Virus record (IMG/VR): IMGVR_UViG_3300025168_000078
Span: 1 to 64,000 of that record
Strand: one strand, 5' to 3'
Length of the DNA: 64,000 bases
Source: a virus
This document shows positions 1,165-50,792 of the stretch, one piece after another. Positions within the stretch are counted from its first letter, which is position 1; each line of letters begins with the position of its first letter. Position numbers and translations under genes: made by a program. The notes beneath the pieces were generated by a model. The model searched no databases. It had not been told where the DNA came from and saw nothing but the letters and a program-made list of their open reading frames with translations.

Positions 1165-2340
1165 TTATCTTCCAACTTCTTTCATGTATTTTTCTTGTGT
1201 TTCTTCCCAGGTTAATCCAATAACATCCCAATAGAATAACATTTCTGGTTTGATTCTGTCTTGTTCATGCATACTTTTATATCTTCTAATCGCTTTTTTC
1301 TTCCACCATTTATCTGTATATGGAATGTCGTCTTGGAATTTCTTCTTCATCTTTAGGTCTTTTTCTTCTATTTCACCCCTTAAGAACTCACAACCATTAT
1401 CATACATCATTGCAAGATAGACACCTCTCTTAAACCCGTGGTCGTATGCTGACCCCTTTATCCCACAATGTTTAAAAACTTTGTTAAGTATGTTCTGTTT
1501 AGGTCCTGTAGCACTTATAGCTTTCGCGTGTTCTTCTGGGTGGTTTTCCTTTAACCATTTGTTCCATGGTAGGTATGCACTATCATCAGGTTTTAACCTA
1601 ACTTTACCTGAGGTTTCCCCCATTGTTTTAAAGTGTGGCATTCCATTGTACATTGAGTTGATTCCATACAGTGCTGTCGTTCCTACAGCAATTAACTTAT
1701 CACCGTATTTTTCTTCCCAAGCATCTCTAATTGTTTTACAAGTAGTTAATGCTGCTATCAATTTACCCATTAACATATTATACCCACCTGGTTGTGTGGA
1801 ACATATCGTTGTAGCTATAGCTGTGTTGTTTAACTTATGTTGGTCAAACTTATTAGTTTTATCCCAACCTATATAAGCGTCTCTAACTTTAATACTTGTA
1901 ACGTCAGACCCTAAACATATCAAACCAAGGACTTTATCTGTTTTCCTATCTCTTACCCAGAATTTCATATTACGTCCAGGGTTTGCAACCCATTCCATTG
2001 TGTGTATAAGTTTTCGGTAGTTTACCCATTCTGTAACACCTTTTCCTGGTGTTGCCATAACAACATAAGGTTCTAAATCTTCAATTTGTCTTATAGTGTG
2101 TTCTACATCATCTAAATCTGATGGTGCAAATAGATTCGTTCGGTAGTCATACAATTTATTTTTTACCTTTTCCATCTTACCACCCTTATTCATTTCTTGC
2201 CACTTTTTATAAAGTGTTTGTTCTTCTACAGACATTTCTTTAAGCATGTCTAGATTATCTATAAGGTTTTGTTTGTTTTCTTCGAAGTTAAAAGAATCCT
2301 CAGCCTCTATAATGTCAAATATTGTTGTTTGTTCTCCCAT
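1165..2340 (-). CDS. DruA-like (DUF4338-type) protein
   Basis: The central part (about residues 130-270) shows the pattern of the DUF4338 family that includes DruA of the Druantia anti-phage system. It has RDAYIGW, a run of conserved Asn (LNNTAIATTI), a GKLIAALTTCKTIRDAWEEK stretch followed by YGDKL, and a closing G-x-T-x-G (MGETSGK). The family's biochemical role is not settled. I chose the ATG at 2340 (391 residues) over the one at 2400 because the extra 20 residues are low-complexity and the fold begins MGEQTTIFDI. The C-terminal 90 residues are Lys/Trp/Tyr-rich and not assigned. It stands alone, without DruB-E type partners, so a whole Druantia system is not implied; a phage-borne nucleic-acid-related function is more likely. 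Confidence 0.6.
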   Translation of the reverse strand: MGEQTTIFDIIEAEDSFNFEENKQNLIDNLDMLKEMSVEEQTLYKKWQEMNKGGKMEKVKNKLYDYRTNLFAPSDLDDVEHTIRQIEDLEPYVVMATPGKGVTEWVNYRKLIHTMEWVANPGRNMKFWVRDRKTDKVLGLICLGSDVTSIKVRDAYIGWDKTNKFDQHKLNNTAIATTICSTQPGGYNMLMGKLIAALTTCKTIRDAWEEKYGDKLIAVGTTALYGINSMYNGMPHFKTMGETSGKVRLKPDDSAYLPWNKWLKENHPEEHAKAISATGPKQNILNKVFKHCGIKGSAYDHGFKRGVYLAMMYDNGCEFLRGEIEEKDLKMKKKFQDDIPYTDKWWKKKAIRRYKSMHEQDRIKPEMLFYWDVIGLTWEETQEKYMKEVGR

Positions 2341-2400
2341 ATTATAATAATAATATATTTTAAGTGATATTTCAAGTTTTGTTGACTTGTTAATTACCAA

Positions 2401-2423: not shown

Positions 2424-2654
2424 ATGGCTTGTAAAAATTGTAAATCCAGTAAGGTGTCCCAAATGTTTAATAATGGAATTAATTCCGTAAAAGGTAACCC
2501 TCAATATGACGAATCTGAATTAAGAAATAGATTGTGGGATGATAGTATGGGTAAATTAAATAAAAAAGAAACTTACCTAATGTGGTTTTTTGGTTGGTTC
2601 CCTTTAATTGTAGGTTATTATACCATTATTAGATTTTTGATATCTATCTTTTAA
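2424..2654 (+). CDS. Small membrane protein with CxxC
   Basis: The 76-residue product starts MACKNCKSSK, with a Cys-Lys-Asn-Cys pair that could bind a metal or form a disulfide. It ends in one long hydrophobic stretch (about residues 52-75, WFFGWFPLIVGYYTIIRFL) predicted to span the membrane. It is one of only three plus-strand genes, is divergent from the DruA-like gene, and its 3' end overlaps the end of dnaJ by 11 bases. The motif at 2401 supports expression from its own start site. Function unknown. Confidence 0.6.
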   Translation: MACKNCKSSKVSQMFNNGINSVKGNPQYDESELRNRLWDDSMGKLNKKETYLMWFFGWFPLIVGYYTIIRFLISIF

Positions 2655-3666
2655 AATTTTCTTCTTCTTTTAAGGAGTTAAGTAATTCACTTTCCCTATC
2701 ATTTAGTTTTTTTGGTGTTTTTATTATCGGTTGGACTACGATATTCCCATCTGTTTCATTACTTCTAGGCATCCCTTTACCACGAACTGTAAAATTCTGA
2801 CCTACCTCACTGAAAGGTGGCATTTCCACATTTAAATTAGTATTAAAATATGGTATAACTATGTTACCACCTAATATTACATCAACAAAATTTATTTCTG
2901 GTTCATATATTAAATCTTTACCATTTAATTTAAATACCTTATGCGGTTCCACCATAACTTGTACGGTAAGATGCCCCGCTGGTGATTTAGGAGCTTCATC
3001 ACCCATATTTCTAAATGTGAATGATTGTCCAGGCATTAGATTTGTTGGTATAGCGAAGTCTATATAGGAATCTCGTTGATTCTGGGCTTTACCATTACAC
3101 GCGTTACAAGTAGTAACTACCATATTACCCGCTCCCGCACAAGTATTACACATTTCTTTTCTTATTTGTCTAATAAAAGCATTACCCACCATTCGTTCAT
3201 GAAATCCCCTACCAGCACATGCTGGACAAATTTGTGTTGTTCCACCAAACCCATGACAAGATAAACAATTAATATTTCTACTATATTTTAATCTTTTTGT
3301 GGCCCCAAAAAAAACATCGTCTAATGTAACAGAAAGAGGAATGTTCAAACTCCTGCCAATATTATCTTGTTGTCTAGATTGGTTTGGTTGGTTTCTAAAA
3401 AACTGATTGAATAGGTCGTCCATATTGGACCCTCCCCCACCACCTCCACCGTGATGGTGAAATGGGTTTTGCCCTCTAGTGTCATATTCCCTACGTTTAT
3501 TGTCATTGCTCAAAACATCATAGGCTTCGGACATTTGTTTAAATAGATTTTCATCACCACCCTTATCTGGGTGATGTTGTTTGGATAGGGTTCTAAATGA
3601 TTTTTTTACTTCATCTTTAGTTGCCCCTCTATTTATATTTAAAATTTTATAATAATCTTTATTCAT
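2644..3666 (-). CDS. dnaJ: DnaJ-type co-chaperone
   Basis: The product is a type I J-protein that would stimulate the ATPase of an Hsp70 and deliver substrates to it. Residues 1-65 form the J domain with the HPD triad at 32-34, followed by a His/Gly-rich linker (about 68-82). A zinc-binding domain (about 134-205) has four CxxCxGxG-type motifs: CLSCHGFG, CPACAGRG, CNTCAGAG and a degenerate CNACNGKA. The C-terminal substrate-binding beta domains follow. At 340 residues it is slightly shorter than the usual 370-380. No DnaK gene is in the window, so it probably works with host DnaK. Its start codon abuts that of the plus-strand gene at 3667. Confidence 0.95.
   Translation of the reverse strand: MNKDYYKILNINRGATKDEVKKSFRTLSKQHHPDKGGDENLFKQMSEAYDVLSNDNKRREYDTRGQNPFHHHGGGGGGGSNMDDLFNQFFRNQPNQSRQQDNIGRSLNIPLSVTLDDVFFGATKRLKYSRNINCLSCHGFGGTTQICPACAGRGFHERMVGNAFIRQIRKEMCNTCAGAGNMVVTTCNACNGKAQNQRDSYIDFAIPTNLMPGQSFTFRNMGDEAPKSPAGHLTVQVMVEPHKVFKLNGKDLIYEPEINFVDVILGGNIVIPYFNTNLNVEMPPFSEVGQNFTVRGKGMPRSNETDGNIVVQPIIKTPKKLNDRESELLNSLKEEENFKR
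3630..3636 (+). promoter_or_regulatory. TATTTAT motif inside dnaJ, serving the 211-residue gene
   Basis: TATTTATATTTAAA reads on the plus strand 30 bases before the ATG at 3667, within the first codons of dnaJ on the other strand. The same 14 bases precede the plus-strand gene at 2424. Confidence 0.45.
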
Positions 3667-4532: not shown

Positions 4533-4699
4533 ATTCCTGTACCTCCTTGGGGTTTTTGTTTAATTTCTCTTTTATTTATAAACTCCTGGATTGTGCTATT
4601 CTTTATTTCTTTTATTACTCTTTTTTTATGTTGCAAGATTTCCTGGTGGTCCTTCAATACTTCCTTTTCCAACCAGGTCTTCAGTTGTTTTTTCTCCAT
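4499..4699 (-). CDS. Hypothetical basic helical protein, 66 residues
   Basis: The frame encodes a strongly basic, helix-forming peptide (LEKEVLKDHQEILQHKKRVI) ending in a Lys/Trp/Phe cluster (IWKKIKKFLKF) that looks amphipathic. It overlaps the upstream 153-residue gene by 74 bases and the downstream gene by 34 bases, each in another frame, which is longer than usual here. A later non-ATG start, or a frameshift linking it to the upstream gene, cannot be excluded. Confidence 0.45.
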   Translation of the reverse strand: MEKKQLKTWLEKEVLKDHQEILQHKKRVIKEIKNSTIQEFINKREIKQKPQGGTGIWKKIKKFLKF

Positions 4700-5087
4700 T
4701 TAATTCTATATTATTTTTTTCAAAATTAAAATTTAGCTGTCTCAAAGAATCTACATTGTTTTCCTCAAACATTTTTTTCAATTCTATCATTTTTAAAGAT
4801 AATAGACTATTTTTCTCTTCCACATCTTTGTTCCATTTAATTATAGCTTTTATTTCATCAATTAATATATCACAACTTTCTCCATTAAACATATGAAAAA
4901 AAGATACTAGTTTTGAGTCGTTTTGGGTAACCCCCACTTTAATTTGTACTTTACCACCTCTACTCTCTAAAACTCTTTTATCTTCCCAACTTAAAGGTAG
5001 TTTTAAATCAATAACTATAAACTCTTCATGTTTTCTAATACTATGAAAATAGACTCCAAATTCTAATATTTCGCTATATAGTGACAT
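4626..5087 (-). CDS. Hypothetical protein, 153 residues
   Basis: An N-terminal alpha/beta region (residues 1-80, with FIVIDLKLPLSWEDKRVLES) is followed by a charged helical stretch (about 85-130, IKWNKDVEEKNSLLSLKMIE) with coiled-coil character and a Gly-rich tail (GKGSIEGPPGNLAT). Its start codon directly follows the stop of the 59-residue membrane protein gene. No family is recognised. The tail region is shared in another frame with the 66-residue gene. Confidence 0.6.
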   Translation of the reverse strand: MSLYSEILEFGVYFHSIRKHEEFIVIDLKLPLSWEDKRVLESRGGKVQIKVGVTQNDSKLVSFFHMFNGESCDILIDEIKAIIKWNKDVEEKNSLLSLKMIELKKMFEENNVDSLRQLNFNFEKNNIELNGEKTTEDLVGKGSIEGPPGNLAT

Positions 5088-5267
5088 TTAATAAATCAAA
5101 TAAGTAAGTGTGTAGGATATTGCAATACCTAATAAAATTAATTCTTCTTTAACTAGGGTGTATCTATCGGGGTCTGTTGATAGTAACTTTGTTACGAATA
5201 AAAAAGCACTCCTACCTAGGTGTAGTAAAAAAAATATAAATATTAATGTGTATACCCAACCAGCCAT
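5088..5267 (-). CDS. Small two-helix membrane protein, 59 residues
   Basis: The frame starts at ATG 5267 and stops at 5088, exactly abutting the genes on both sides. Two hydrophobic segments (about residues 5-26, WVYTLIFIFFLLHLGRSAFL, and 43-58, LILLGIAISYTLTYLI) are separated by a short polar loop (STDPDRYTLVKEE). That suggests a small inner-membrane hairpin protein. A holin or a small envelope modifier is possible but nothing specific points to it. It is co-directional with the histone H1-like gene directly upstream. Confidence 0.6.
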   Translation of the reverse strand: MAGWVYTLIFIFFLLHLGRSAFLFVTKLLSTDPDRYTLVKEELILLGIAISYTLTYLIY

Positions 5268-5441
5268 CTATTTTCTACTTTCTTCTAATATTTCTTTTCT
5301 TAGGTCCTGTAGAACACTTTTCAGTTGTTGTGCTGATTTTCTAGCACGTATCCCAGCACTTTTATTTTTTTTATCAAAAAATTTTTCAGCATCTACTTTT
5401 ACTGCTGTTACCAATGTTTCTAATTTTGTTAATGTCTCCAT
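5268..5441 (-). CDS. Histone H1-like DNA-binding protein (Bacteroidota type)
   Basis: This 57-residue basic protein begins METLTKLETLVTAVKVDAEK and continues KFFDKKNKSAGIRARK, then QQLKSVLQDLRKEILEESRK. It matches the layout of the small histone H1-like (Hc1-related) proteins common in Bacteroidota: an N-terminal helix, a K-F-(Y/F)-x-K-x-N-K-x-A-G-x-R-A-R-K core and a C-terminal helix. Family members are thought to bind DNA non-specifically and shape the nucleoid. The gene sits between the 68-residue gene (one-base gap) and the membrane protein gene (no gap). In a phage it could compact phage DNA, displace host H1 or alter transcription; that is inference. Confidence 0.8.
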   Translation of the reverse strand: METLTKLETLVTAVKVDAEKFFDKKNKSAGIRARKSAQQLKSVLQDLRKEILEESRK

Positions 5442-5442
5442 G

Positions 5443-5649
5443 TTATTTATTTTCTTTTTCTTTATTTATATAAGTTTCCCAAGTACCAATATTTGCATTA
5501 GCCTGGGTTAATTTATTAATTAGTTTCATACTTAACTCTAACTTTTCTTCAGTTGTGTCCGTGGTTAGATTGAGTACTCTTTCTAATTCGTGTTCTAACT
5601 TTTGTTTATCTGTTATAAGCTCGTTACTAATAATATTTAATATTCTCAT
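5443..5649 (-). CDS. Hypothetical helical protein, 68 residues
   Basis: The product is almost entirely helix-forming with Leu/Ile at heptad spacing (LITDKQKLEHELERVLNLTT, then KLELSMKLINKLTQANANIG), so a small coiled-coil dimer is likely. No family is recognised. It lies one base upstream of the histone H1-like gene and 17 bases downstream of the 158-residue gene. Confidence 0.6.
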   Translation of the reverse strand: MRILNIISNELITDKQKLEHELERVLNLTTDTTEEKLELSMKLINKLTQANANIGTWETYINKEKENK

Positions 5650-5666: not shown

Positions 5667-6143
5667 TTATTTAGCCACAGTCAAGCTGTCATCTAGAATT
5701 TTATATATTTCATTAAACATATCTAATTCTGATTTAGTTTTATTAATATATAACGTAAATAATGTACTTAAAAATGACCTAAGTTTTGTAATGTGTTCTT
5801 CGTTATTAGTGTGTTGGTAGTAAGACTCGTCAAAAAAATTCCATAAATAAACATAGTGTTTACCTTCTTTTCTAAATAGGATATTCTCTTTTTTAAAGTT
5901 ATTTATTGTCTTCTCCCAACACCAATTAAAATGACCTTTTTTTTCACTTTCACTTTTTATAATATCTTCACCTAAATAGGTATCAATAATTACCCCATAT
6001 AGTGAATCCAAATAATCACAAAAAAGTTCAGATTTTTCTGCATTTATATTATTAACTTTAACCCATAGATTCATTTCGTCACTACTAATAGGTTCAGTTA
6101 TATAATTTAAAAATTCTTCAGGTAGTAATCTTCTTCTTTCCAT
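5667..6143 (-). CDS. Hypothetical protein, 158 residues
   Basis: A soluble, acidic, Tyr/Trp-rich protein (for example HYVYLWNFFDESYYQHTNNE) with mixed alpha and beta tendency and no signal peptide or membrane segment. It ends with a helical stretch (KSELDMFNEIYKILDDSLTV). No family is recognised. The 52-base gap before its start holds no clear motif; TATCTTTA there is one base off the Bacteroidota -7 box but no matching upstream box is seen. Confidence 0.6.
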   Translation of the reverse strand: MERRRLLPEEFLNYITEPISSDEMNLWVKVNNINAEKSELFCDYLDSLYGVIIDTYLGEDIIKSESEKKGHFNWCWEKTINNFKKENILFRKEGKHYVYLWNFFDESYYQHTNNEEHITKLRSFLSTLFTLYINKTKSELDMFNEIYKILDDSLTVAK

Positions 6144-6195: not shown

Positions 6196-7137
6196 TTACT
6201 GAGTATTTTTATTATAAACCCATAATCTTTTCATACTTTCAACATCAATTCCAACACCTTCTTTTACTTGTAGCACTTTTTGTACATCTGGTGTGATACC
6301 TTTTAGGTTTGTCATGGATGCTTTCTGAGTGGCTATTTTTTCTTTTCTACGTTCAGCTGACTTTTTTATTTTTTCCCCTAAATTACTTTTATAACCAACA
6401 TTACCTAACAATTCCCCGTCTTCATCTTCTTGAGCATTTCCTGTTTCTGAAGAACCTTCTAGGTAATCGGTTAGTTTTTCCATATTTAAGTTATTAATAT
6501 CAAAGTCGGCTAATCCTGGATGAGCAAAATCATCTATAAATTCTTGGTCGTCGTCATTATTTCTATAGTATTGATATCCTATATTTTCTGGGTCTGTTTT
6601 TGAGTCTTCCTGGTGGGGGAACTCTGGATTTGTGTTACCTTCAAAAGTCTCATAGTCTTTAAACTTCTTTTTTGTATCTTTTAGATATTTTTTACTTTCA
6701 CTACCACTAGTTTTATGTGCTCTTTCATACTCTCGCATTCCCGGGTCTTTTTTTGCTTCCTTTAATTTTTTTCTCACTAATTTTTTAATAGTGTCTGTGG
6801 TAGATTCACTAATTCTAGATTCTTTTGTATCCCCTGTTGGTGACTCTTCATAGTTTGGGTCATATTTCTTTTTTACTTTGTCTAGGAATTCTTTTGTATC
6901 CCCTGACCCTTGTTCAGACATAACCTCTTTAACCATACCATCAATTGTATTTTCTAATACCATTTTTTCTGCCATTTCATCAGCGACAGCTTTTAAAGCC
7001 TCTTCAATTACTTGAGTTTCTGACGCTTTGATTTCTAAACCTTTATGGTCACGTGCTAATGCATGATTTTCACCTATTCGGTCTACAGCTTTTCTTATAA
7101 TTTGTGTTAAATCTGGACTTTTTGCTAGTATTGACAT
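6196..7137 (-). CDS. Hypothetical hydrophilic protein, 313 residues
   Basis: A highly charged protein without membrane segments. The N-terminal 100 residues are helical (MSILAKSPDLTQIIRKAVDR). The middle (about 100-230) is a Lys/Asp/Ser-rich, probably disordered region, and the C-terminal 60 residues are again helical and basic. The profile fits an internal virion, scaffold-like or assembly protein, but no family is recognised. It follows the 237-residue gene, which has a similar low-complexity character. The start is supported by the TATTTAT motif at 7152. Confidence 0.65.
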   Translation of the reverse strand: MSILAKSPDLTQIIRKAVDRIGENHALARDHKGLEIKASETQVIEEALKAVADEMAEKMVLENTIDGMVKEVMSEQGSGDTKEFLDKVKKKYDPNYEESPTGDTKESRISESTTDTIKKLVRKKLKEAKKDPGMREYERAHKTSGSESKKYLKDTKKKFKDYETFEGNTNPEFPHQEDSKTDPENIGYQYYRNNDDDQEFIDDFAHPGLADFDINNLNMEKLTDYLEGSSETGNAQEDEDGELLGNVGYKSNLGEKIKKSAERRKEKIATQKASMTNLKGITPDVQKVLQVKEGVGIDVESMKRLWVYNKNTQ

Positions 7138-7151
7138 AATTTCTTTTTATT

Positions 7152-7158
7152 ATAAATA
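7152..7158 (-). promoter_or_regulatory. TATTTAT start-site motif before the 313-residue gene
   Basis: On the minus strand ATATTTATAATAAAA lies in the 26-base gap between two genes, its core 14 bases before the ATG at 7137. Confidence 0.5.
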
Positions 7159-7163
7159 TCTAT

Positions 7164-7877
7164 TTATTCGTATTTCCCCCCTACGTTTGACCCCATTGTA
7201 GAAATTTTACCTATTGGGGTGTTCATTTTTGCTTTACCTACAAGACTAGTTATTGGTGACTTATAGAAACTTCTACTTATAATCTCTTCTATTTCTTTTT
7301 TTACCAAATTTTTAATATAGTCTTTATCTTTACCGGTTTTCTTAGAAACTTCATTAATTGCTTTTTTAATTTTATTGTTTTCTGTTAGGTCTAAAGCGTT
7401 TATATCTCCTTGATTACAGTATGGGAACTTTTTACATTTGTCTTTTATTTTAACAAATTTACCTCCTGGCCATTGTGTTTTTGCCGCTCCTCTCCAATTT
7501 TTTTTGTCTTTAGCCCACATTTGTGGTGTTTCATATGACCCTGAACTTGCAGCTGTAGTTTGTTCACCCACCTCTTCTTGTTTTTCTTTCTTTTTCTTTT
7601 TAAATCTTGGGTCAAACCCTAAAGGAGCCGAAAAAGCTCCTGAACTTGCAGAAGTTGTTTGTTCACCCACTTCCTCTTCCTTATCCCCCTTTACCCATTC
7701 AGAGTGTAAAATTCCAGGGTGTATCTCAGCACATTTTTTACCTTTATGTGTTCTCACTTCTTCTTTTACTTCCTCCATATCTTTTTGATTTTTTAATAAG
7801 CTTTTAAAAAACATTTTATCCGGACCCTCAATTGCTTTATTTATAGCGGCATCAAAATTATTTTGTAATTGTCCCAT
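7164..7877 (-). CDS. Hypothetical phage protein with repeated EEVGEQTT-ASSG segments
   Basis: The 237-residue product has a helical N-terminus, then two copies of a short segment (EEVGEQTTSASSGAF and EEVGEQTTAASSGSY), a Lys-rich stretch between them, and a motif-rich part (NWRGAAKTQWPGGKF, then CKKFPYCNQGDINAL). From memory, similar WRG-xxKTQ-x-PGGK and FPYCNQGDI stretches occur in other marine T4-like phages, so it is probably a conserved phage protein, perhaps virion-associated. That recollection is not checked here. The C-terminal half is helical and basic. Confidence 0.65.
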   Translation of the reverse strand: MGQLQNNFDAAINKAIEGPDKMFFKSLLKNQKDMEEVKEEVRTHKGKKCAEIHPGILHSEWVKGDKEEEVGEQTTSASSGAFSAPLGFDPRFKKKKKEKQEEVGEQTTAASSGSYETPQMWAKDKKNWRGAAKTQWPGGKFVKIKDKCKKFPYCNQGDINALDLTENNKIKKAINEVSKKTGKDKDYIKNLVKKEIEEIISRSFYKSPITSLVGKAKMNTPIGKISTMGSNVGGKYE

Positions 7878-42278: not shown

Positions 42279-45200
42279 TTAACCTTCATTTAAATTTATT
42301 CTACTTGCTACGCACTTACACTGACTCCAACTCCATTGGTACCCCATTGCACACGATTCTGTTTGTATACAAGGAGCTTCTATTAACTCCATTGGCTCAT
42401 GGTCATGGTCATGTGGGTCACTAGGCCCTCCAGTACAACAATGACCCCATTGTTGACAAAATAAATAACAATCGTGGTTAATGTTTAGTGCCGCACCACT
42501 TGCACAGTGAACACAACAATTACTAAGTGGCATAGACTTACATGGGTCATTTGGGTGACAGTTAACTTCTGTTTCATCTGGCTTACACTCACACGTTGGG
42601 TGGTTTTGGATAAGGTAAACTACGTTACCTGCACTATCCATACAGCATTTTTTACAAATATCTACCGGTCCCCCCGTACAATCTTGCCAGTTACCTGAAC
42701 TATCGTAACCACAATTTTTCCATGCATATCCTTGGGAATTTATAATTAAGACGTCATTGATAATTTGGCATGGTATAACACTTGTCCTAGACTCTTTTAT
42801 CCCCAAAGGACCCACTACTGGGTTACTGTCCAATACACAACAATGACAACACTGTTCATTTGCTGTGTTTGGTATACAGTCATTCTCAAAATAATTCCCA
42901 TAGACCCCATTGTATGGTACGTAATTTATAGGTCCTGTTAAATCACTAGCTAAAGTAATGGCACATTCACCACACTCACCAACAGTAGGGTTACAAGGGT
43001 CACCATTATCATTAAACCCACAATCCATCCACATACCACCACCAATGTTTTGACCTATGCTTACTGATGGTTGATTCCCCAGTGCACATCTAGGTGGTGC
43101 ACTCATTTTAGCTTGTAATGTAGCGTCTTGTGGGTCAGATGGGTCTACCCACTTAACACAACAGTAACAACACTCATCATCTGGGTCCACCACACAATTA
43201 TTTAGTGGGTAATTAAGTGGTGATGTCCAATTCCCTAAAAATGTAATTGGTGCGGTTAAATATAAACCTAGTGTAAGAGCACAATCCTCACAACCGATAA
43301 GTGGTGGTGAACAAGCTGCTACACACATTGGGTAACTCGCGTATTGTCCTAATCCCGTTCCTGGGTCATAGCAAGTTCCCTGGTCACAATCCCATGACTG
43401 TACCATAACATTTGGACTACAACAATTTTGTCCATAGTGGTTTTGGCAATCACTAAGGTTAGCGTAACAACCATTACCTACTGTAAAACATGTTGGGTCT
43501 ACTAAACATTCACATTCATCGTCACCCCAATCAAAACATCTATAATATGTCTGTGGGCCACAACACGTATTTGGGTCCGTTTGACAGTCTAATAGTGATA
43601 AGCTACCACTTAGTGCTGTTGCGTCAAAAACACAATTACAAATCAATTGTTGTTGTGGGCTTAATGTTTGTTCACACACCCAAAACCCTGAAGGGGGTAA
43701 AAAACAACATGTAGTTTGACTTGCTTGACATGAAGGTAGGTTTGGAAAACCAATAGTGGCCGCTGGGTCCCATACACAGTTACAATTACCATCACACACA
43801 AATGCTCCCGGTACTGGTGGTTCAGAACAACAGTTATTTGGGTAATCGTTTTCACAATCAAGTTTATTGTCATAAATCCCAGTTCCACTTGGTAGACATT
43901 CACATTCATCATCACCCCAATCAAAACATTCCCATTTTTGTAGTGGTTGGGTATAACAACAGAAATTAGGGTCGTTTTCACAACTAATAGCGTCAATAAA
44001 TGAGTTCGGGGCAACAGCGGCTGCATTTTGTACACACGTACAATCGGATATACAACATGGTTCTGCAATAAATCTATCACAATTAATAAATGAAAGTAAC
44101 CCACCAGCTTCAGCGTTACACCCATTAGGCATTGAAGCAGTTGCTCCTAAAGAATTCCCGATAATATGAGCTATAACACTATAATCACATTGATACCCTT
44201 GGTACACCCCATAGGCTCCTACATTTAGTCCTGTATTTAACTGAACTGCTGGAGCTCCCAATGCAACCGCAGTATCAACATAATCTTTAAGTGTGTAGAA
44301 CATTTGGACTGACCCGGCTATAGCGTCTAATATTAAATTATGCATACCATTTCCTTTGACGTATTGATAGTCATTGTTTGGGGCTCTACAACATGTAGTT
44401 CCTTGTAACGCTGGAGGACATGCTAACGTCCATTTTGCCCATCTATAAGCACTAAAGTCCGCACTTATACCATATGACGCTATAATAGTTTCATAACTCC
44501 ATATATCAGTAGGATAAAGGAAACTATTATTTGCCATTTCGTCGTTAATATCTTGTGAGTCCCAACCTAAATTTACTAGATTCGAAGATTCGTTTGAATC
44601 CAGTATTGGGGTATTCACACAATGGTCAGTGTAATTACTAGGTGTAAAACTTTGGACACATTCCCAAGGTACCGGAATATAACAACAAGTTGTAGTATCG
44701 TTTTCACACGCTGTTTGGTTTGGATACCCGGAAAGTGCTGCTGGGTCAAATATACAACTACAAACTGCTCCTACATCACATACATAATATCCTGTAGTAG
44801 CAGATTCACAACATGGGTGAGCACCAGGACCAAAGGAATCAATAACATCTTGACAATCTTGTTCTGTATTATACTGACCTCCATTTCCAATCACACTGTT
44901 ACAATAACACGGTGATGTTGTGCAAATACATAAATTAGGGTCTGCGTAGTCGTACCCACTAACATTTAGACTATTGTTAGGTATACCGTATGTTGCGGCC
45001 CATGTAGAGTCATTTCCAGATTCATTATTTGCTTGACCACAATGTATCTGAAAAGCTGCCCAATTTTCTGGGTGTGTGTTGGATAGGCTTAGTCCTAGTA
45101 TCCCCAACATTGTTGCTTGGTTCACAAAATCAGCGTAGGAAGTTGTGGATAGGCCTCCTCCAGGAATTGCTGCGTCCACTACTGGGTCAGCATTACAACT

Positions 45201-48200
45201 TTTTATCTTTAACCCAACACTCATCCATTGTCCACCATACGATGTATCACAAGCACTATTACCAGCAGTTTCAACTCTAATTCCACTATGTGGTGTTGAC
45301 TGTAGTCCGTTTGATGCGATGGCTATGTACTGCATGTACTCACTAAAGTTTGGTATCAACCCCCCAGCCCACGGTAAAGTAGGGTCTGTAGCACCATCCA
45401 AATATACGACTCCGTTACAACTGTTTGTTTGTGTACCTTCTATACAATTCCAACTAATAACGTTAACTGGTCCGATACATCCAGTATCACATGGTATCCA
45501 TATTAAATTTCCAGTACCACCACCATTTTCCCATACTGGTGTATTGGTTTGGTAGTCATTCCAATATGCTTCATACCAGTCGAATGGTGTTAAAGCTCCA
45601 TGGGTAGGTTGTGTGTAACTATCAGTAACACACACGTAACAACATGTGGTACTACTATAGGAAGGTGGACCAAATGTTTGTGTAAATAACACTACGTCAC
45701 CTAACTGGTATAGTGTGGTATTATCCCATATAGAACCTAGTGTAGATGGGGTAGGTGGTATTGACATAGTAGTATTGGATAAAATCCAATTGCTATTTAT
45801 ATTATCCCACGAATAGTAATTAACACTACCTATTTGTATACATTCATAACAGTTACAGCAATTGTCTGTTGGTGAATTTGTATATGGTCCGTTATTAACA
45901 CTAAACGTACACCCTGTCATACTATCAAATACTGGGGTACAGGTGGTTGTTTGATTTAAAAACACACATACACACCCATTTATACAATCACCACATAAAA
46001 AATTACATTCTGCTTGACATAAGGCCATAGAAGGGTATGGTCCAGAAGCAAATGTTAAAGGTGGATTGGTGGCTAGGTACCCAGTACAACCGTCTAAATC
46101 ATCACAATAATATTCTGTGGTAGCTGCTGAACAAGGATAATAACCAATTGTTGATGTTGTTGTTATCTGACAGTCTGAAGGGTTAAGTTGTGGGACGGCA
46201 CCAGTACAACACAAAGTTTGCCCCCATTCCAACTCACAGAACCCACTACCAGGTGGTGAACATTGACAGCAAAATACACATTGGTCTTCACAATCTTGAA
46301 GACTAGCAAACCCAGTACCCCCGTTAGTATAACTAACTTGACCTATCCCCCACGCTTGTGCCTGTACACTTGGAGACGCACCATTAATGTAGGATGATGA
46401 TACACAAGCCGAAACTCCTGGTGTCCCATACAACCCATTTATCGCACCATTTTGGTCACAAAAATAAGTAGTTGCTACACAACAATCACAATTATTAGTA
46501 TGCATCCAACAATCAAACGCCGACACATATGTTGGTACTGGTGGTGAAGCTGGGTTGGAGAGAAATGTACAGGAGCATCCCGCAAAACTTAGTGGGTCTG
46601 GATTACAAGTCCACGTACACCACTCTTGACAGGCAGCTATACTAGTAAATTGTCCTGGGTATGAACCGTGTCCAGGTGGTATAGGTATACACCCTAACCC
46701 CGCTGTATTTGACATTGGTTCACAATTAGAAGAATCATCACAATTAAACGTCACACCTGAAGTATCACAACAATCTAAGGCTCCTGTTGGTGCTGCTATA
46801 GCTAAACAATCATTGAATGTAGTTAACGGAAATGTAGGTGCGAATAACCCTGGTGGTACAGTAGGTGGGTAATTAGGATACATAATACTAGCTGTTGATA
46901 GTTGTAGTATGGTATCTGTTTGAGTTATCCAATCATATTGGGATACACATCCGGTTTCATCTATTCCTCCTATTATTTCCTCACAAAAACAACTTGCCCC
47001 ACATTCATTATCACATGTCCCTATATCACCATAACAATTTTGTGATGTCTGAGTGAAGTTTACATCTATTACACATGAGGAGACAATACACCCAGCTGGG
47101 GTACACTCAAATGTATCACCGCTGTCACCACAACATGGTCCACAAGGTTCACCACATATAGGAGAAGGTACTGTACCTCCTGCTGTATGGTCACAAGCTA
47201 ACCAACAATTAGGTGTTCCATCCGTTGCTGGACCATCATCTGGAGTAAAAACAGTGCAATCATAAACAATACCGGTACCAAGAGGGTCTGTTCCCGCTGT
47301 ACCCACCCCTAACCAAGGACAAGCACAAAGATAACAACAAGGGTTGTCCATTGTACCTGGTGAATTAGGGTCCCAATAAGAAACTATATCACCTTCACCA
47401 TAAAATAAATTATTATCCCAGTACCCTTTATCTGTAAATACGGGGTTACCTGGGTCTGGTTCTAACCAATTACAAGCACACATACAACTATCAGCATCAG
47501 GACAACACTCATACTCGTCTGGTGTAGTATTGGGTATAACACATAGGTCTGTGGTACATTCAATTATATCACAATAAGGTAGTCCATACAGACCTTGTGT
47601 CACAATTGTATTCCCAGCAGCATTTGGTCCACCATGAGAACACATCTCAACATTACCAAGTGGTAAAAACCAGTAACATGGATAATATCCTGCTGGGAAC
47701 ATTTGGGTTGTACCTGTTCCAGCTATAAAGTCATCGTCATTACAAGCTGCGTGACAACATCTAGTTGCTTCACAACATTCGCCAGATGTAGCATACCCAG
47801 TAAATGGTGGTGGTTGAGAAAACGTTACCCCTAGTTGTGCCATAACATAAGCACTCGGGTATTGTGTGCACCCTTCCGAGGTTGGTGTTCCATCGTCATT
47901 AAGAACACAATCCCAACCTACGTCACATTCACAATATTCGTCACATTGTGTGTAAGAGGTAAAGGTTGGTGGAACTCCGAATGGGTCTGGTGGCCAATAA
48001 GGACACCCTGGTTGACCATTATTGTTTGGGTCTGCGTACATTGAGCAAGGTGTTTGACTTGTACAATCACAAACTATACAAGTTGTTAAAGCGGTACAGT
48101 TTTGGTTACATAAATCTTCGTTAGGTACTGGCCACCCACAACCTAAAGTCCAACACGGAATACATGGTGAATTCATTGTCTCACAACTCCAACCACATTG

Positions 48201-50792
48201 AGTTATTCCAGCTGGATTAGCTGTTTGACAGGAATATTGGGTTGAGTAACTACCCCCTATTGTAACTTCATAACACCCTTGTTCACAATCATAATTCCAC
48301 CCTGTATACTCACAACATGTATCTGATATTAAGGGTACCCCGTGATTACATGCCCATTGTGCTGTTGGTAGCCATGGACCATCCTCAAAATATAATTGGT
48401 GTATATTCGCTATATACTCTGCTTGACTAAAAGGTGGTGGTATTGGAGAAGGTAATGTATTTATCACATTAGTTATCAAACTCGTATATACTGGTATTCC
48501 TGTTAGAAAATCTTCAGCACAGGATATTAGACTACAACATTCTCCAGCCGGACCTGTAGCTGTGGTACATGACCAAGCTGGTGGTTCACACCAATCCATA
48601 CAATCATCAGGGTTTTGAAAAACTGGTCCAGCATAAGGGTCGGCTGGGTCAAAATTAGTATATTGTGGGTTATTTGTTGTTATTTCTATACATCCATTAC
48701 AACTATATTGTGTGATATTACCCAGTTCATCCCCACATAACCATCTATCCGGATAACATTCACCGTCATTATAATCATCAATACAGTCACCATAAAATGG
48801 GTAACCATTTAATGTAAAAGGTCCTTGTGGTGTTGTTACCGTTAATGCTGAAGAATTTATAAAATCACAACTAGTAGTACTAACACTTGTTAAGTCCTGA
48901 GGACATATCCAAGAACCACAACCTATATAGTCCCATTCATTACTATTAGTAAATGCACTTGGGGAACCTAAATTACCTGTTGCTAAAGCTTGGTAACAAT
49001 TACTATCTAACCCAGTAACATATTGTCCTGTAGTATAACTATTACCGTTCGCGTATACACCACCTAAAAGTGGGACACCCAAAGATATTTCTGGAGCAAG
49101 TTGTACTATAGTTGGGTCTTCACATGGTACTGTGGTACCTGGAGGGCATACTAAACAAGACTGGTCACACGCTTCCCAAATATGTTTAGTTGGTAATCCA
49201 TTATCGTACCAAACTCCTTGATATGTCTCTGTTGGTGGTACGAATGCCCATGGTGATGGTGAACTAGTTTGGTTTATATCTTCAACGGCCATATAACAAC
49301 AACATTGTCCGTAGTTTTCATCAAAAATTATATCACCACGAACATAATCTACACTGGAACTCCACACACCTTTCTGAAAAGATGGTCCTGACAAGATGCT
49401 CATCGGTACTCCAGTTATTCTATCAGTATATTCGTCTTTGGTCTCACAAAAAGCACAATCTTCTAATAAACATTTAAAACAATCGTACGCTCCAAAAGCT
49501 AAAGAATTTAACCCACAACTGGTTGCGTTATAGAGGGTTATCCCATTAGAAAAGTCATATAATTCTACTGTCGCAGCGTTATTCACACCAGAACTAATAG
49601 TATATGCTGTATAACCGTTAGTCGCTTGTGTTATTTGACCAATCATAGCTGGTACTATTTCATCCGTTACTGGGTTGACTACATCAGAACCTAACTCTGT
49701 TGGTACGAGTTCAAAATATCCAGGAGGTAAGAAAGGACTCCCTGATGGTGTTGAGGAATATGTTTGGAATAGACTTAGCATACTTTCTGTTACACCTGAA
49801 ACATCGAAGCATGCAGTTGGACTTAACGCACTGTACTGCATGATATCGGTACCAGAATCCCATGGTGTTCCTGGTGATATCTCATGGAACCCACTTGAAA
49901 TTTGTGTTCCTAGGTGGTTATAGATTGGATATTCTTGTGGTGGAATTCCCACAACCGGACCTAGTGCTTTTAATTGTGGGTAAGACATAAATGGAACCCA
50001 AATAGTTTGACTTACTGACATAGGACCCCAGGGTGTTTCTTGTGTTATGGTAATTTTTTTCTGCATGGGTGTAGTATTGGTATACGTATGTGCAGTACTT
50101 AAATTAGGGTATTGTAGTATAGCTTGTTGAGCGCCCCCAAAACTAATAGTATATGGGGATTCTTGTAGTGACTTGTAGTAAGAAAAATCTGTAGTGTTAT
50201 ATACCCGTATTTTCATAGGGTTATTGGTGTCTGCGGTAACTATAAAATTACTAAATATTTCTTTTTGACTTATGTTTCCGTCCCAAATAGAATAATGACC
50301 TATATCATTAAAATCTTGGGTTAGTTTTAATGTTATTTGACTTAAATTTTCCTCTAGTGGGTCGACACAAAAGCAACCTCCCACATTTTGAGTAAAGGTG
50401 TATTGGTTTGCGTTGGTTAGGTCTTTAAGATGGATTAGTTCGTCATAACTCCCGTTTTGTATGAATGTACCACTAAATATTGCTTTAAGTCCCATAAACT
50501 TAACATACCCGAACTGACCTATATTTGTGCATTGAGCTAGATTTGTGGATGTAAACTGGTCATTAAGTAACACACAAGGGTTAGATATGGAACACCCCCT
50601 TAACTCTTCTGGAAATGTGGTCACATCCCCACTCAAACTTAATTGTACCTGACTAGTTGTGGAATTGTACATAGTAACTCCCGAACAGTTAGTACTGTAA
50701 TTTATAGGCCAGTAGTCGGTGCCTCCCGAACAGGGGATACTCCAATAACTGGGTGCATTTTTTCTTGTTATTCTAAACTTTTGTACTTCCAT
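42279..50792 (-). CDS. Giant cysteine-rich repeat protein, 2837 residues
   Basis: One continuous frame of 8.5 kb. The first approximately 460 residues are ordinary beta-rich sequence. The rest is a long series of short cysteine modules of the type (W/Y/F)-x-C-x(4-8)-C-x-C-x(5-15)-G-x-(Y/F)-x(3-6)-C-x(5-8)-CC, with frequent CC pairs, Gly, Pro, Trp and Asp. Examples are WNYDCEQGCYEVTIGGSYST and WECFDWGDDECECLPSGTG. Such a protein should be held by many disulfides and be extended and protease-resistant. It has no signal peptide and lies inside the tail gene block, so I infer a virion fibre, whisker or adhesion protein folded after lysis or by a dedicated oxidant. The C-terminal 180 residues include a His/Asp-rich stretch (SDPHDHDHEPMELIEAPC). 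Confidence 0.8.
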   Translation of the reverse strand: MEVQKFRITRKNAPSYWSIPCSGGTDYWPINYSTNCSGVTMYNSTTSQVQLSLSGDVTTFPEELRGCSISNPCVLLNDQFTSTNLAQCTNIGQFGYVKFMGLKAIFSGTFIQNGSYDELIHLKDLTNANQYTFTQNVGGCFCVDPLEENLSQITLKLTQDFNDIGHYSIWDGNISQKEIFSNFIVTADTNNPMKIRVYNTTDFSYYKSLQESPYTISFGGAQQAILQYPNLSTAHTYTNTTPMQKKITITQETPWGPMSVSQTIWVPFMSYPQLKALGPVVGIPPQEYPIYNHLGTQISSGFHEISPGTPWDSGTDIMQYSALSPTACFDVSGVTESMLSLFQTYSSTPSGSPFLPPGYFELVPTELGSDVVNPVTDEIVPAMIGQITQATNGYTAYTISSGVNNAATVELYDFSNGITLYNATSCGLNSLAFGAYDCFKCLLEDCAFCETKDEYTDRITGVPMSILSGPSFQKGVWSSSVDYVRGDIIFDENYGQCCCYMAVEDINQTSSPSPWAFVPPTETYQGVWYDNGLPTKHIWEACDQSCLVCPPGTTVPCEDPTIVQLAPEISLGVPLLGGVYANGNSYTTGQYVTGLDSNCYQALATGNLGSPSAFTNSNEWDYIGCGSWICPQDLTSVSTTSCDFINSSALTVTTPQGPFTLNGYPFYGDCIDDYNDGECYPDRWLCGDELGNITQYSCNGCIEITTNNPQYTNFDPADPYAGPVFQNPDDCMDWCEPPAWSCTTATGPAGECCSLISCAEDFLTGIPVYTSLITNVINTLPSPIPPPFSQAEYIANIHQLYFEDGPWLPTAQWACNHGVPLISDTCCEYTGWNYDCEQGCYEVTIGGSYSTQYSCQTANPAGITQCGWSCETMNSPCIPCWTLGCGWPVPNEDLCNQNCTALTTCIVCDCTSQTPCSMYADPNNNGQPGCPYWPPDPFGVPPTFTSYTQCDEYCECDVGWDCVLNDDGTPTSEGCTQYPSAYVMAQLGVTFSQPPPFTGYATSGECCEATRCCHAACNDDDFIAGTGTTQMFPAGYYPCYWFLPLGNVEMCSHGGPNAAGNTIVTQGLYGLPYCDIIECTTDLCVIPNTTPDEYECCPDADSCMCACNWLEPDPGNPVFTDKGYWDNNLFYGEGDIVSYWDPNSPGTMDNPCCYLCACPWLGVGTAGTDPLGTGIVYDCTVFTPDDGPATDGTPNCWLACDHTAGGTVPSPICGEPCGPCCGDSGDTFECTPAGCIVSSCVIDVNFTQTSQNCYGDIGTCDNECGASCFCEEIIGGIDETGCVSQYDWITQTDTILQLSTASIMYPNYPPTVPPGLFAPTFPLTTFNDCLAIAAPTGALDCCDTSGVTFNCDDSSNCEPMSNTAGLGCIPIPPGHGSYPGQFTSIAACQEWCTWTCNPDPLSFAGCSCTFLSNPASPPVPTYVSAFDCWMHTNNCDCCVATTYFCDQNGAINGLYGTPGVSACVSSSYINGASPSVQAQAWGIGQVSYTNGGTGFASLQDCEDQCVFCCQCSPPGSGFCELEWGQTLCCTGAVPQLNPSDCQITTTSTIGYYPCSAATTEYYCDDLDGCTGYLATNPPLTFASGPYPSMALCQAECNFLCGDCINGCVCVFLNQTTTCTPVFDSMTGCTFSVNNGPYTNSPTDNCCNCYECIQIGSVNYYSWDNINSNWILSNTTMSIPPTPSTLGSIWDNTTLYQLGDVVLFTQTFGPPSYSSTTCCYVCVTDSYTQPTHGALTPFDWYEAYWNDYQTNTPVWENGGGTGNLIWIPCDTGCIGPVNVISWNCIEGTQTNSCNGVVYLDGATDPTLPWAGGLIPNFSEYMQYIAIASNGLQSTPHSGIRVETAGNSACDTSYGGQWMSVGLKIKSCNADPVVDAAIPGGGLSTTSYADFVNQATMLGILGLSLSNTHPENWAAFQIHCGQANNESGNDSTWAATYGIPNNSLNVSGYDYADPNLCICTTSPCYCNSVIGNGGQYNTEQDCQDVIDSFGPGAHPCCESATTGYYVCDVGAVCSCIFDPAALSGYPNQTACENDTTTCCYIPVPWECVQSFTPSNYTDHCVNTPILDSNESSNLVNLGWDSQDINDEMANNSFLYPTDIWSYETIIASYGISADFSAYRWAKWTLACPPALQGTTCCRAPNNDYQYVKGNGMHNLILDAIAGSVQMFYTLKDYVDTAVALGAPAVQLNTGLNVGAYGVYQGYQCDYSVIAHIIGNSLGATASMPNGCNAEAGGLLSFINCDRFIAEPCCISDCTCVQNAAAVAPNSFIDAISCENDPNFCCYTQPLQKWECFDWGDDECECLPSGTGIYDNKLDCENDYPNNCCSEPPVPGAFVCDGNCNCVWDPAATIGFPNLPSCQASQTTCCFLPPSGFWVCEQTLSPQQQLICNCVFDATALSGSLSLLDCQTDPNTCCGPQTYYRCFDWGDDECECLVDPTCFTVGNGCYANLSDCQNHYGQNCCSPNVMVQSWDCDQGTCYDPGTGLGQYASYPMCVAACSPPLIGCEDCALTLGLYLTAPITFLGNWTSPLNYPLNNCVVDPDDECCYCCVKWVDPSDPQDATLQAKMSAPPRCALGNQPSVSIGQNIGGGMWMDCGFNDNGDPCNPTVGECGECAITLASDLTGPINYVPYNGVYGNYFENDCIPNTANEQCCHCCVLDSNPVVGPLGIKESRTSVIPCQIINDVLIINSQGYAWKNCGYDSSGNWQDCTGGPVDICKKCCMDSAGNVVYLIQNHPTCECKPDETEVNCHPNDPCKSMPLSNCCVHCASGAALNINHDCYLFCQQWGHCCTGGPSDPHDHDHEPMELIEAPCIQTESCAMGYQWSWSQCKCVASRINLNEG
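43497..43940 (-). repeat. Two nearly identical cysteine modules in the giant gene
   Basis: CFDWGDDECECL occurs twice, coded near 43505-43545 and 43899-43940. The two DNA copies differ at only one base over about 30 (TCATCGTCACCCC against TCATCATCACCCC), while flanking modules are much more divergent. This points to recent duplication or gene conversion. Confidence 0.65.

Follow-up and report, generated by a model that had tools for sequence, protein, structure and literature searches.

The window analysed here comprises 64,000 nucleotides (positions 1 to 64,000) of the IMG/VR virus record IMGVR_UViG_3300025168_000078, which has a total length of 65,948 bases (65.9 kb). The record belongs to a myovirus-like phage with genes for a baseplate wedge protein, a DnaB-like helicase, a primase, a ribonucleotide reductase, a sigma factor and an SbcC-like protein; an open reading frame for 2837 residues occupies window positions 42279-50792 (minus strand), within the structural region of the genome. 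A single gene for an Hc1 protein occurs in the whole record, and it is located within a tightly packed run of minus-strand genes. The features of this region are as follows:

2644..3666, minus strand: DnaJ-type chaperone gene; protein cluster 2, conserved in the same syntenic block; J domain with HPDKGG and CxxCxGxG repeats read from the sequence
4626..5087, minus strand: downstream neighbour of 153 residues; cluster 4, at most three genes downstream of hc1 in 35/35 loci; no known function
5088..5267, minus strand: hydrophobic protein of 59 residues; cluster 10, called in 23/35 loci; no family
5268..5441, minus strand: hc1-like gene for 57 residues with an ATG start; PF07432; basis of the dN/dS estimates, alignments A1 and A2 and the AlphaFold2 model
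5443..5649, minus strand: gene for 68 residues directly upstream of hc1, from the open reading frame list; cluster 31, in part of the related loci; no significant family
5667..6143, minus strand: upstream neighbour of 158 residues; cluster 3, at most three genes upstream of hc1 in 35/35 loci; no known function

Because just one base separates hc1 from the stop of the 68-residue gene, and the 59-residue gene begins directly behind the hc1 stop, hc1 and its neighbours are probably translated from one message. Scans for promoters and terminators remained at or below background. The 59-residue product is a probable membrane protein, judging from its hydrophobic sequence. For the 158-residue neighbour AlphaFold2 predicted an all-alpha fold (pLDDT 90.6), and the fold search returned one structural match, the uncharacterised phage protein A0A6J5L4S3, which gives no function. 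The 153-residue neighbour produced only sub-threshold Pfam matches and no solved relative in the profile search, and profile searches of solved structures with the hc1 neighbours yielded no function. Two adjacent related proteins of 313 and 237 residues (6196-7877, minus strand; cluster 0), to which no function is assigned, occur in tandem in most window-type phages and are highly variable in length. Next to the chaperone gene, at 1165-2400 (minus strand), lies a homologue of DruA (Pfam DruA, E=2.7e-24; PADLOC DruA, E=3.7e-25; cluster 15), which adjoins DnaJ in most window-type phages and stands alone in the phage. DruA forms part of the anti-phage system Druantia.

The product of hc1, METLTKLETLVTAVKVDAEKFFDKKNKSAGIRARKSAQQLKSVLQDLRKEILEESRK, was assigned to the Hc1 family by its match to Pfam PF07432 (E=6.8e-19, 67.9 bits at a cut-off of 23.5), which extends over the full length of both partners, residues 1-57 aligning to profile positions 1-57 of 57. 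PF07432 also recognised every one of the 40 aligned members. The Hc1 core N-x-S/A-A-G-x-R-x-R-K is present in the window protein, and within alignment A2, which brings together 40 sequences of phage and cellular origin and spans several phyla, the residues N26, S28, A29, G30, R32, A33, R34 and K35 are invariant. The window protein carries a net charge of +5 (pI 9.8), and its relatives of 57-68 residues range from +1 to +5. Thus, the original prediction of a phage-encoded Hc1 protein was confirmed by a significant profile score, by the phage genes within the record and by the detection of Hc1 relatives at 78 IMG/VR loci in one scan. As PHROGs contains no model for the Hc1 family, phage annotation pipelines based on PHROGs would overlook the gene.

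Modelling by AlphaFold2 with 40 sequences yielded a two-helix hairpin (mean pLDDT 96.9, pTM 0.76), in which residues 2-24 form the first helix, residues 25-26 the turn and residues 27-56 the second helix. In the predicted structure, the invariant motif N26-x-S28-A29-G30-x-R32-A33-R34-K35 begins at the turn with N26 and continues along the start of helix 2. Sequence searches identified no PDB relative, and a fold search with the model returned generic helical hairpins only, none of them convincing; the small phage anti-activator Aqs1 was among these matches (E 4, not significant). Identity with eukaryotic linker histone H1 was considered and rejected, as a winged-helix globular domain is absent and a hairpin is predicted instead; eukaryotic H1 was also not among the fold matches listed for the model. 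The best viral structural match of the Hc1 model was BFVD A0A1V0SJN2, a protein of 131 residues from Klosneuvirus KNV1 (TM 0.90, 27% identity, E 0.019), which may represent a giant-virus protein with an Hc1 domain.

The conservation of the locus was determined on a window-type set consisting of the window and 34 IMG/VR loci that share one gene neighbourhood. The 158-residue family upstream and the 153-residue family downstream were found within three genes of hc1 at all 35 loci, and this fixed arrangement holds while Hc1 identity falls from 93% to about 54%. Comparison of hc1 with ten close relatives gave dN/dS values of 0.027-0.186, with changes mostly in third codon positions; hc1 is under purifying selection in this lineage. 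Taken together with the exact coordinates, the ATG start and the full-length profile match, this establishes that the predicted frame of 57 residues is a real gene, and the frame is conserved in related phages.

Outside the window-type set, Hc1 was encountered in several further phage groups. Overall, the phages with Hc1 are mainly those with large genomes (contigs of 155-270 kb, Lak phages of 540 kb). In the T4-like marine contigs L035-L077 the protein is 39-44% identical to that of the window, and hc1 occupies a T4-like replication block, in which the genes run from the gp45 clamp through the clamp loaders gp44 and gp62, regA and hsp20 to hc1 and then, after a few small genes, to DNA polymerase B and UvsX. 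The Prevotella phages Lak-A1 and Lak-B5 carry hc1 close to a gp44-like clamp loader gene (at about 4 kb and 0.4 kb, respectively), and uncultured phages of 462 and 635 kb also encode Hc1. The 'histone H1' of Synechococcus phage S-SRM01 (YP_010670256.1) is likewise phage-encoded, has 62 residues and reads N-N-A-A-G-T-R-A-R-K at the motif; it differs from the window protein in its cyanobacterial host and its neighbours and is nearer to the T4-like marine group. Within the window lineage, six long contigs were compared: five have hc1 and the gene for polymerase B tens of kb apart, the sixth having no polymerase match, so that the replication neighbourhood is confined to other phage groups.

Among cellular genomes, a scan with a single sequence found no relatives, whereas an alignment-based scan did. 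PF07432 was detected in 117 of 198 sampled Bacteroidota genomes (59%), in 55 of 61 sampled Fibrobacterota genomes (90%) and in a few metagenome-assembled genomes labelled Pseudomonadota, which may be mis-binned. These stand-alone chromosomal proteins resemble the phage protein in size (56-70 residues), domain and motif, the T of their N-K-S/A-A-G-T-R being usually I in phages, and nearly all lack a basic tail. In a sample skewed towards sequences containing the motif by which they were retrieved, such a tail was absent from 121 of 122 cellular copies; many Fibrobacter copies have short neutral or acidic C-terminal tails. The one exception is L196, a chromosomal Hc1 of the Bacteroidota genome G171, with a K/A/P-rich tail of 30 residues (AGDAAGAAKAAPAKKAAAPAAKKAAPAKKK) and thus an HctA-like architecture. 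The gene neighbourhoods of host Hc1 were not conserved across phyla and gave no functional hint.

In trees built on 60 columns, the window-type phages formed one cluster and the T4-like phages another, while the Lak proteins grouped with host proteins of Flavobacterium/Alistipes type and the protein of the 462-kb phage with the other Bacteroidota type. This grouping of phage and host proteins suggests that phages acquired Hc1 several times. The phage clade is separate from the chromosomal proteins and shows no stable nesting inside Bacteroidota; with 60 columns only, the base of the tree is unstable and the sister group of the window clade differs from tree to tree.

The original prediction had regarded the protein as Bacteroidota-type and as a strong host signature. 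The protein supports both only weakly: besides 59% of the Bacteroidota genomes, PF07432 occurs in a still higher share of Fibrobacterota, and Hc1 is also encoded by a Synechococcus phage and by T4-like marine phages employing Shine-Dalgarno sites, so that the family is no clean signature. Indications of the host were obtained elsewhere: among genes of at least 90 residues with ATG starts, a Shine-Dalgarno-like motif preceded 0 of 189 genes in 18 window-type loci (3.8% in shuffled leaders) and 0 of 14 in Lak phages, compared to 36 of 73 in T4-like loci (22% in shuffled leaders). Missing Shine-Dalgarno sites and A-rich leaders are typical of Bacteroidota. A Bacteroidota host is therefore likely for the window phage, given the lack of these motifs and a gene content resembling that of moraphages, the latter likeness being drawn from the description in PMC12619734.

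Moraphages are jumbo phages with mostly Bacteroidota hosts, and PF07432 has been reported from four complete moraphage genomes together with DnaJ and DnaK (PMC12619734, Arch Virol 2025). They share with the window phage the same Pfam family, the character of large tailed phages, predicted Bacteroidota hosts and DnaJ. That giant Bacteroidota phages carry Hc1 was hence already known before the present analysis, and genome compaction had been suggested for the protein; the same study equates it with the eukaryotic linker histone, which the hairpin predicted for the window Hc1 does not support. New in the present analysis are the occurrence across several phage groups, the position within the replication operon of the T4-like group and the selection data, as well as the finding that the tail is missing in phage Hc1 and nearly absent in cellular relatives.

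The significance of this tail follows from chlamydial HctA. The DNA-binding part of HctA is reported to be its C-terminal tail (PMC3469542 and its reference 30), and the N-terminal region of chlamydial Hc1 is cited there as a potential dimerisation site (Pedersen et al. 1996). Three relatives of the window protein, one from Flavobacteriaceae, one from another Bacteroidota and one from a T4-like phage, matched the NCBIfam HctA model NF051889 at about positions 3-61 of 121 with 17-30 bits, compared to a cut-off of 100, so that members from cells and from a T4-like phage align with the N-terminal half of HctA. For its part, the window protein gave no match to NF051889 at E<=0.1 and falls short of the equivalog cut-off of 100 bits for this model of 121 positions; it stops at residue 57, the end of the domain, and has no basic C-terminal tail. 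By this alignment, phage Hc1 corresponds to the half of HctA reported to dimerise and lacks the half reported to bind DNA. The earlier proposal that the protein packages or compacts phage DNA, or interferes with the host nucleoid, finds no support in the sequence, and the label 'histone H1-like' should be taken with caution as evidence for DNA compaction. The protein may still bind nucleic acid, as the retained half is basic (net +5) and three of the invariant residues are basic.

The reading we favour, albeit tentatively, is that Hc1 is a small nucleic-acid-associated accessory protein. The stand-alone domain would be a basic two-helix hairpin, probably self-associating, which would contact nucleic acid through the invariant N-x-S-A-G-x-R-A-R-K at the start of helix 2. 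In the infected cell it would most likely be an abundant small factor assisting DNA or RNA metabolism, acting much like a nucleoid-associated protein on phage DNA as this is replicated or expressed, rather than an H1-style compactor or packaging protein. This is suggested by the full-length PF07432 match, the invariant motif, the charge and pI and the confidently predicted hairpin, by the position of hc1 in the T4-like replication block and near the gp44-like clamp loader in Lak phages, and, with regard to self-association, by the potential dimerisation site in the homologous chlamydial region as cited in PMC3469542. Arguing against it are the distance between hc1 and polymerase B in the window lineage, where the link to replication fails, the modest net charge together with the loss of the only characterised DNA-binding part of HctA, and the lack of a PDB relative by sequence or a convincing one by fold. 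In the literature searched, neither functional studies nor binding measurements were encountered for a stand-alone Hc1 protein.

A more far-reaching version is, in our view, unlikely: that the stand-alone hairpin is a widespread, previously unrecognised replication accessory factor, which large phages with differing hosts (those of Bacteroidota, Lak and further huge phages, the T4-like marine group and a cyanophage) gained on several occasions and which became fixed in the T4-like replication operon. Its motif would contact nucleic acid or the replisome, as would that of a housekeeping protein in Bacteroidota and Fibrobacterota. The function of the stand-alone form matters, as the majority of the Bacteroidota genomes sampled and almost every Fibrobacterota genome encode it. 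That unrelated large phages keep the same hairpin of 57 residues under strong selection, one group within its replication operon, indicates that this small domain has a use of its own, and phages are a simple setting in which to learn what it does.

The main rival to a nucleic-acid-associated role, although somewhat less probable, is that of a protein-protein adaptor, in which the hairpin would bind a host or phage protein via the invariant motif with no direct contact to nucleic acid. The loss of the HctA DNA-binding tail, shared by almost all cellular relatives examined, the neutral or acidic tails of many Fibrobacter members, structural matches limited to generic hairpins including the non-significant Aqs1, and a chaperone gene nearby, which is DnaJ in the window and hsp20 in the T4-like group, would all suit an adaptor, but the invariant R32, R34 and K35 and the basic pI suit nucleic acid, and the family is annotated as a nucleoid protein. 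Interference with or replacement of host Hc1, by which the phage would remodel the host nucleoid, appears rather improbable. Competition or mixed dimers with the host protein could occur in those Bacteroidota with a chromosomal homologue, and over-expressed HctA condensed the E. coli nucleoid and stopped growth (PMC3469542, PMC13317200); however, it is for full-length HctA, basic tail included, that condensation has been documented, and the hosts of the T4-like marine and Synechococcus phages may have no Hc1, a Synechococcus control genome giving no PF07432 match. Even less credible is packing or condensing of phage DNA in the virion, as proposed by analogy for moraphages (PMC12619734) and in line with the preference of Hc1 for large genomes, since the basic tail is missing, the net charge reaches just +1 to +5 over 57-68 residues and hc1 of T4-like phages sits among replication genes in their operon rather than near those for the head. 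That hc1 is a functionless passenger recently copied from a host, where similar genes are common, is contradicted by dN/dS values of 0.03-0.19, the fixed neighbourhoods at 35/35 loci and the separate phage cluster, which point to long residence under selection and make this explanation barely conceivable.
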